From a virus: a stretch of 64,000 nucleotides of DNA. The DNA is taken from positions 1-64,000 of IMG/VR virus record IMGVR_UViG_3300040801_002079; one strand, 5' to 3'. The position numbers and the translations under genes were made by a program. Below are positions 23,425-24,028 of this stretch, piece after piece (positions within the stretch are counted from its first letter, which is position 1; each line of letters opens with the position of its first letter). The notes below the pieces were generated by a model. That model was not told where the DNA came from. It worked only from the letters and a program-made list of their open reading frames with translations, and searched no databases.

Positions 23425-23456
23425 GCCGGGGTGGTGGAATTGGTAGACACGCTTCG
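23425..23456 (+). pseudogene. Truncated tRNA-Leu (5' part only)
   Basis: GCCGGGG acceptor strand and a complete Leu-type D-arm are present, sharing 23 identical bases (23430-23452) with the intact tRNA-Leu at 23948-23970. The anticodon arm and everything 3' are missing, and no partner CCCCGGC follows. The HNH gene starts 35 bp later, so the tRNA was probably broken by insertion or deletion. Confidence 0.75.
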
Positions 23457-23491
23457 TGTTTTCTTATTTGTGTTTAGTGATAAATAAAGTT

Positions 23492-23941
23492 ATGGAAGAC
23501 ATAACTAAATATATACAATTACCACTAGAAGAACGTCAGGCACACTTACAATTAGATGAAGCATGTGTCGAACGTGGCGGGCAGAGTATGTACTGCAAGA
23601 CACTGTTAGCACATATACTAAATACTACCGTACCCTCGGGACGAAAGATACATGTGTGCCACGCCTGTCACAATGCAGAATGCAGTAACCCAAATCATTT
23701 GTATTGGGGTACCCCGAAAGAAAACGCAGCAGATAGGGTAGCAAATGGAGACAAAACCATTTGGGAAAAAATGGTCGATAAATACGGGTTAGAGGAAGCT
23801 CGTAAATTACAAAACAGAGGCTCTAAACATGCCTCTAAAGCTGGTAAGGGTAATAAAGGTAAACCCAAATCAGAAGAACATAAACGCAAGATAGCGGAAG
23901 CTATTAAGCGCAGAAACAAAAATAAGGTAAAACTAGTTTAA
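23492..23941 (+). CDS. HNH homing endonuclease in a tRNA cluster
   Basis: 149 residues from ATG 23492 (MEDITKYIQLPLEERQ); the longer frame would start inside the tRNA remnant. HNH core VCHACHNAECSNPNHLYWG with following TPKENAADR, then a C-terminal basic module (GKPKSEEHKRKIAEAIKRR) like NUMOD3 DNA-binding helices. It ends 1 nt before the intact tRNA-Leu. It probably homes into tRNA-Leu-like sequence. Confidence 0.85.
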   Translation: MEDITKYIQLPLEERQAHLQLDEACVERGGQSMYCKTLLAHILNTTVPSGRKIHVCHACHNAECSNPNHLYWGTPKENAADRVANGDKTIWEKMVDKYGLEEARKLQNRGSKHASKAGKGNKGKPKSEEHKRKIAEAIKRRNKNKVKLV

Positions 23942-23942
23942 A

Positions 23943-24028
23943 GCCTTGGTGGTGGAATTGGTAGACACGCCAGATTTAGGTTCTGGTATCATTATGATGT
24001 GGGAGTTCGAGTCTCCCCCAAGGCACCA
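23943..24028 (+). tRNA. tRNA-Leu(TAG), CCA encoded
   Basis: Acceptor GCCTTGG/CCAAGGC, anticodon stem CCAGA/TCTGG with loop TTTAGGT (anticodon TAG), long variable arm as expected for Leu, T-arm GGGAG-TTCGAGT-CTCCC, then ACCA. Confidence 0.95.

Follow-up and report, generated by a model that had tools for sequence, protein, structure and literature searches.

The DNA analyzed here, a window of 64,000 nt of a 316.8-kb virus record, contains half a tRNA-Leu gene, an HNH endonuclease gene and an intact tRNA-Leu gene in succession (Table 1), and this block is best read as a phage homing cassette which settles in a tRNA gene and supplies a tRNA to replace it. We put the probability of this reading, which rests on comparisons of sequence and layout among relatives, at roughly 0.8. 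The layout of a half tRNA, an HNH gene and an intact tRNA is widespread in uncultured phages. By its layout and the descent of its enzyme, the window would be a member of this cassette family, with less certainty than applies to the family as a whole; two features speak against the reading for this particular locus, as no 3' half was found behind the intact tRNA and the latter retains the presumed target D-arm.

Table 1. Features of the putative homing cassette and their positions in the window.
Feature	Position	Strand	Remarks
tRNA-Leu 5' half	23425..23452	+	acceptor strand GCCGGGG and D-arm, without anticodon arm; no ARAGORN call
Inverted repeat, left arm TAGACACGC	23444..23452	+	within the D-arm of the broken tRNA
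Inverted repeat, right arm TTGTGTTTA	23468..23476	+	beside the promoter box; family-wide pairing exceeds that of shuffles and of other loci's arms
GATAAATA, T4-late-promoter-like box	23479..23486	+	5 nt upstream of ATG
HNH (I-PpoI-like His-Me finger) endonuclease gene	23492..23941	+	149 codons; alternative GTG start at 23456
Intact tRNA-Leu(UAG)	23943..24028	+	ARAGORN, Rfam; read as the putative replacement tRNA of the cassette

Within the window, the original prediction of a D-arm shared by the two tRNA sequences proved exact: the 23-nt repeat GGTGGTGGAATTGGTAGACACGC occurs at 23430-23452 and 23948-23970 and, with both strands of the window searched, nowhere else, where base composition would lead to expect 0.00008 identical 23-mer pairs in 64 kb. 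As the window holds 48 repeated 23-mers in total, including tandem repeats near 5.2 kb, the case is built on position and on relatives and not on rarity alone. With ARAGORN, two tRNAs were identified in the window, tRNA-Gly(GCC) at 23013-23089 and the intact tRNA-Leu(UAG), and none at the sequence that starts at 23425; thus, the first tRNA-Leu, described earlier as ending before its anticodon arm, is indeed not a complete tRNA. Its acceptor strand pairs with the 3' strand of the intact tRNA at five of seven positions, compared to seven of seven for the intact tRNA's own strands, which indicates that the half and the intact copy are two different tRNA-Leu genes. The HNH stop codon ends one base before the second tRNA, as had been noted. 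The start, which had been placed 35 bp past the end of the first tRNA, needs correction, since the likely start is the ATG at 23492, 40 nt past the repeat, with an in-frame GTG at 23456. Three further elements lie in the vicinity of the block, namely an 82-codon open reading frame at 23153-23401, before the half tRNA, with a weak match to phrog_27874; a sigma-70-like promoter (TTGACA-17-TATACT, identified by eye) at 24046-24074, between the tRNA-Leu and an HTH gene; and a phage protein resembling IMP dehydrogenase/GMP reductase (PF00478, E 3e-64) at 26343-27515.

The window HNH protein matches PF05551 with an E-value of 7e-6 and 26.7 bits, just below the 27-bit cut-off, and HNH_3 at 7e-4, also below the cut-off; in addition, it matches HNH families of PHROG. 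At E 0.01, 26 of 33 family members match PF05551 and 18 of 33 match HNH_3, and the Pfam families matched are exclusively of the HNH type. A GIY-YIG domain, sought in the window protein with Pfam at E 0.1, gave no match. The nearest solved relative of the nuclease core is I-PpoI (PDB 1a73, 1evw and others), which differs in being intron-encoded and aligns over about 32 residues. A profile match (E 9e-4) places positions 48-79 of the protein on positions 89-120 of I-PpoI, and entries of I-PpoI took the top four places in a search with a structure model of pLDDT 82, the structural match being weak (best E 0.04, probability 0.98, 33 columns, TM 0.2). If this match of equal length is ungapped, the invariant residues H57 and N78 fall on H98 and N119 of I-PpoI, which we take to be the catalytic residues.

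A search of viral contigs with the HNH protein yielded 76 loci, from which 18 short partial matches (L059-L072, L074-L077) were excluded and 58 long matches were analyzed, and a family alignment search contributed the best 80 of 192 relatives. After removal of near-copies, 75 distinct HNH sequences remained. Nearly all of them are metagenome contigs; the window is one of the 75, and two, L158 and L159, are records of named phages. Scans of bacterial and archaeal genomes revealed no relatives of the HNH protein. An intact tRNA on the same strand was regarded as adjacent if its start lay no more than 60 nt upstream or 40 nt downstream of the HNH stop. In this sample of distinct sequences, including the best 80 of 192 relatives, the HNH gene runs straight into an intact tRNA in 59 of the 73 cases with at least 130 nt downstream (two of 75 were omitted for their short downstream sequence). 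The adjacent tRNA is a tRNA-Leu in 56 of them, with 29 Leu-UAG, 25 Leu-UAA and one each of Leu-AAG, Leu-CAA, Gln, Trp and Ile making up the 59, compared to 59 tRNA-Leu among 692 other tRNAs of the same loci; as the loci are related, the p-value of this comparison can serve only as a guide. In 30 of the 59, the HNH stop occupies one of two fixed places within the tRNA, exactly 15 nt into it in 18 loci and exactly 10 nt into it in 12.

Such a distribution might also arise if an ordinary free-standing homing endonuclease had entered an array between two tRNA-Leu genes, the half being a decayed neighbor and the intact tRNA the next member. The lack of a 3' half in the window would suit this explanation, as would the 14 of 73 members, L158 and L159 included, for which no adjacent tRNA was counted, and the position of SegB in T-even phages, which the available text of PMC2988022 places between unsplit tRNA genes. 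On closer reading, two of these 14 also end in tRNA sequence: the HNH gene of L288 extends 72 nt into a tRNA-Leu(UAG), and that of L312 ends in a sequence resembling tRNA-fMet, as judged by eye only. The fixed positions of the HNH stop within the tRNA argue against a chance settler, and three further lines of evidence, the paired halves, the empty sites and the joint movement of HNH gene and tRNA, point in the same direction. We consider this explanation unlikely, and for the family it is already disfavored.

The first of these lines concerns the tRNA halves. Upstream of the HNH gene, 35 of 75 sequences have a D-arm match that exceeds the 99% level of shuffled sequence, and 40 stay short of this level; a 5' half with an acceptor strand precedes the gene in 34 of 75 (one start corrected), and in 33 loci such a half before the gene is combined with an intact tRNA after it. 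As a 3' half we accepted a 7-mer followed by NCCA behind the intact tRNA which pairs with the 5' half at six or seven of seven positions, G-U pairs allowed. Pairing 3' halves were found in 12 of the 33 loci (L007, L016, L017, L026, L027, L248, L262, L286, L290, L294, L299 and L301), whereas permuting the loci gave a mean of 4.6 pairing loci and reached 12 in none of 10,000 rounds. In these 12 loci, the acceptor strands flanking the cassette are thus complementary, which is at odds with a decayed array neighbor. A scan of the loci that was independent of the HNH gene, and whose D-arm pattern overlooks halves of tRNAs other than Leu, for instance that of L046, identified six split tRNAs with the halves in the correct order, compared to none for the reversed order, and added L287 and L291, where the 3' half lies further downstream. 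As far as the sequences of the halves show, both lack the anticodon arm, and hence rejoining them could yield no working tRNA. The broken halves are mostly of the same class as the cassette tRNA, with ACAC followed by GC where the latter is UAG and by AA or similar where it is UAA (by eye). At the right junction of L007, L017, L026 and L287 the cassette ends in GCCCT directly before the 3' half (by eye, and not a general feature); this motif could pair with the acceptor strand of the 3' half to form an acceptor/T-arm minihelix ending in CCA.

The second line of evidence comes from sites without the cassette. A scan with the exonuclease adjoining the cassette of L039 yielded five empty relatives of L041 (L195, L204, L206, L210 and L211), which match it at 73.6-86.9% over 221-626 nt in the upstream flank and at 79.8-82.6% over 195-978 nt in the downstream flank. 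Between these flanks lie 550 nt in L041 and 56-57 nt in the five empty loci, the latter corresponding to one intact tRNA-Leu(UAA). Similarly, L056 and the empty L251 share 89% over 65 nt upstream and 81% over 278 nt downstream, with 567 nt and 66 nt in between, respectively, L251 holding one intact tRNA-Leu. A single intact tRNA at either empty site is not what an endonuclease settled between two array members would leave. In both L041 and L056 the old halves, the 5' half included, are badly decayed, which counts against the reading; to the right, just the final letters of the old tRNA can be recognized clearly. Apart from the pairs of L041 and L056, most pairs resembling empty sites seemed to result from tRNA genes matching one another, and none of these other pairs was used. 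Within the group of L195, L198, L204, L205, L206, L208, L210, L211 and L224, a conserved block of about 150-200 nt between tRNA-Arg and tRNA-Leu resembles a structured RNA (GAGGGAAAG..GAGGGCAAG..ACTAGACGG), for which Rfam gave no match in the three loci searched (L198, L204 and L208). The comparison of relatives with and without the HNH gene, which the original prediction had called for, thus shows complete tRNAs and not preexisting halves at the empty sites, the opposite of what would have contradicted that prediction, among relatives none of which is close to the window. The one syntenic relative of the window, L078, was found via the lysozyme and has the lysozyme, tRNA-Gly and HTH genes in the same order without the whole block, and the 82-codon reading frame is missing as well; nothing lies between its tRNA-Gly and HTH gene. 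Either the window would have gained the block or L078 would have lost it. Further searches for an empty site of the window yielded no relative with the IMPDH-like protein and, with an alignment of the HTH protein, the L078 contig again.

The third line is provided by two loci from two metagenome samples, L287 and L291, which share 681 identical nt inside a 734-nt match of 98.6%. This match extends from the first base of the 5' half to the CCA of the 3' half, i.e., between the two ends of the tRNA gene, and the rest of the 4.4-kb loci shows short matches only (best E 1e-4). The intact tRNA is part of the common block over its full length and does not differ between the loci. The halves do differ, with GCCCTGG/CTAGGGC in one locus and GCCCAGA/TCTGGGC in the other, and in either locus the two pair with each other. 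This pattern is what recent homing of one cassette into two tRNA-Leu genes would leave, and the movement of cassette and tRNA as one block again argues against an intact tRNA that is simply the next array member. In a tree of 72 HNH sequences (3 of 75 omitted), a clade of 31 rows (support 100/95) comprises 24 with UAA, seven without a called tRNA and none with UAG; UAG tRNAs occur elsewhere in the tree, where L285 is the single UAA exception. The window falls among the UAG carriers, in a 10-row group with support of 91/63. The anticodon class tracks the HNH tree. As the HNH gene is accompanied by a complete tRNA whose anticodon tracks its tree, the broken gene is apparently replaced; the earlier notion that one tRNA was lost is incomplete, in that a complete tRNA arrives with the HNH gene. 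Homing into a tRNA gene, as originally suggested, is well supported from the relatives by matching halves in 12 of 33 loci, two comparisons of occupied and empty sites, and one cassette found in unrelated flanks.

Instead of a complete tRNA, the cassette might supply only the 5' part, which the resident 3' part completes, making the intact tRNA a chimera. WHO elements do so at yeast FBA1, according to the available text of PMC7282813, and such a mechanism would fit the window and other loci that lack a 3' half. We regard this as improbable, as the old acceptor strand of the window pairs at only five of seven positions with the 3' strand of the intact tRNA, the old 3' half persists beside a complete tRNA in 12 loci, and the common block of L287 and L291 contains the entire, identical intact tRNA. 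Intron or integrase-borne insertions in tRNA genes are common, and L321 offers an example in a tRNA-Met-like gene, which is split by a group I intron and adjoins another endonuclease; nevertheless, a self-splicing intron or integrase-borne element, with the flanking halves reunited at the RNA level or restored through recombination, is highly improbable here, given that Rfam at its gathering score identified tRNAs only and no intron family in the window, L016, L046, L286, L287, L291 and L294, that both halves lack the anticodon arm and leave nothing functional to rejoin, and that the HNH gene is the sole gene-sized open reading frame of the window insert.

Returning to the homing cassette, 56 of 70 loci (5 of 75 sequences omitted) have a TAAATA box no more than 45 nt from the ATG, compared to a mean of 5.7 and a maximum of 12 in shuffled sequence, at a distance of 5 nt in 17 loci and of 16-19 nt in 23. 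Judged by the spacing that we take to be that of T4 late promoters, the box may represent a T4-type late promoter, and the 5-nt class would be leaderless. An inverted copy of the broken tRNA's D-arm adjoins the box. Over the 44 loci with a recognized D-arm motif (misplaced in L286), the pairing sum amounts to 281, compared to 182 for shuffled sequence and 250 for the arms of other loci (maximum 279 in 2000). The inverted repeat may act as an RNA hairpin, which the varying loop length favors, or as an operator, and either could apply. T4 endonuclease genes are similar in this respect: the available text of PMC2988022 describes RNA structures and operators resembling homing sites at their late promoters, and for I-TevI an operator of this kind which lies over the late promoter. 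Between tRNA genes, a stem of the form TTAGGATGCGTACAGCAAA...AAAAGCATCCTGTTTT, with variants, recurs upstream of the HNH gene in L057, downstream of tRNA-Leu in L021 and downstream of the HNH gene in L292.

The D-arm had been proposed as the recognition site, in favor of which are the inverted copy at the promoter and a strict D-arm core in 22 of 34 halves, as opposed to 3 of 51 adjacent tRNAs (those of the window, L006 and L028). Comparison within the same locus gave 19 of 28 halves and 1 of 28 intact partners, and the core is found in six of eight distinct tRNA-Leu genes of the exonuclease loci, three known carriers excluded. On the other hand, the intact tRNA of the window has the same D-arm, and recognition must therefore extend further or the intact copy is not immune. 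It is plausible that the carried tRNA is resistant to cleavage. The other tRNA-Leu genes on the carriers' contigs have the core in 4 of 38 cases, compared to the 3 of 51 adjacent tRNAs (p 0.45); as the cassette tRNA is no more diverged than these, its divergence does not speak for a change driven by immunity. Carriers are generally without the canonical target, and this is not peculiar to the cassette tRNA.

We thus envisage that the HNH endonuclease, probably expressed late, would recognize a tRNA-Leu gene across the D-arm and the anticodon region and cut it in phages free of the cassette. Recombination would then copy promoter, HNH gene and complete tRNA into the break, the tRNA carried by Leu cassettes usually sharing its isoacceptor class with the gene that was broken. 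The target gene would be left as two dead halves, such as those observed in relatives, and its function would pass to the cassette tRNA, whose D-arm differs in most carriers and perhaps thereby escapes the enzyme.

Parts of this scheme are already known. In WHO elements at the yeast FBA1 gene, a free-standing endonuclease gene travels with target-gene sequence that is said to confer resistance, the host gene stays functional, and dead fragments of the old gene remain beside the element (available text of Coughlan et al. 2020, PMC7282813). In the phage cassette, likewise, function-keeping target sequence is carried within the element, as seen for the complete tRNA in the moving block of L287 and L291, and fragments of the old target stand beside it (34 of 75 sequences have a 5' half, and 12 of 33 loci have both). 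According to the same text, WHO elements encode an intein-like zinc-finger protein and replace the 3' end of a protein gene in yeast, whereas the phage cassette encodes an HNH enzyme, targets a tRNA, carries a complete replacement gene and leaves both old halves. In the way it works, the cassette thus resembles a WHO element without belonging to that group, because its enzyme matches only HNH-type Pfam families and no intein-like zinc finger. Homing endonucleases of phages at tRNA genes are also known from SegB of T4 and T6, which is tied to tRNA genes and cuts within them; as the available text has it, it is a GIY-YIG enzyme found near many tRNA isotypes without preference (PMC13096335). The accessible parts of this article and of PMC2988022 describe no split tRNA with a replacement tRNA for SegB and T4 endonucleases. 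An archaeal tRNA-Thr locus likewise combines a 5' fragment, mobile DNA and a complete tRNA of the same type, but the available text concerns a recombinase-coding insert and archaeal introns at one locus and no phage HNH homing (Sugahara et al. 2012, PMC3293823). Home-and-rescue gene drives, too, disrupt a gene and carry its replacement, and are engineered Cas9 constructs in insects (e.g., PMC7968924, available text). What appears to be new is the split phage tRNA accompanied by a complete replacement tRNA: no description of this layout was found among the matches listed in searches on tRNA-linked homing endonucleases and on rescue or resistant-copy elements, which covered titles and the starts of abstracts with few subscription papers and no preprints, and the available part of PMC10448857 contains nothing on tRNA replacement.

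The same layout occurs with an unrelated endonuclease. In L046 (same contig as L320), a half tRNA starting at 5344 (GCCCCCT) is followed by an open reading frame at 5416-6012, which carries a C2H2 zinc finger and NUMOD3, both below Pfam cut-offs, and ends 10 nt inside tRNA-Met (6003-6077). The 3' half AGGGGGC, ending at 6124, was missed by the HNH-independent scan, its pairing being judged by eye. In L325, the layout at about 1800-2510 has an endonuclease 33% identical to that of L046, flanked by a tRNA 5' half, identified by eye, and by an intact tRNA-Phe; both layouts include a TAAATA box. In three of the six loci from the search for relatives of the L046 endonuclease (L321-L323), the gene adjoins an intron-bearing tRNA gene instead. 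The group I intron of L321 (2345-2548; RF00028, 74.9 bits) lies in the tRNA-Met-like gene directly behind the endonuclease, and L322 and L323 share the same downstream sequence. Both endonuclease families would have in common the 5' half, a late-type promoter, an endonuclease stop often inside a complete tRNA, and the 3' half; the tRNAs beside such cassettes are widely Leu-UAG and Leu-UAA, with single cases of Leu-CAA, Trp, Gln, Ile, Met and Phe. The two cases of L046 and L325 suggest a strategy that extends beyond the HNH family. It might tentatively be speculated, at somewhat less than even odds, that cassettes which break and replace tRNA genes represent a strategy general among phages, in effect a home-and-rescue drive of natural origin, used by unrelated endonuclease families on several tRNA types with one layout. 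If so, carriers would remove the tRNA genes of rivals, possibly also those of the host, and retain their own diverged copy.

Read as a homing cassette, the block explains both the half tRNA genes in phage arrays and the endonuclease genes that abut intact tRNAs there, and it offers a route by which a selfish element may enter a short RNA gene without splicing. The turnover of phage tRNAs would then be tied to homing and not to codon usage alone, and the cassette would be a compact natural counterpart of the engineered home-and-rescue drives.
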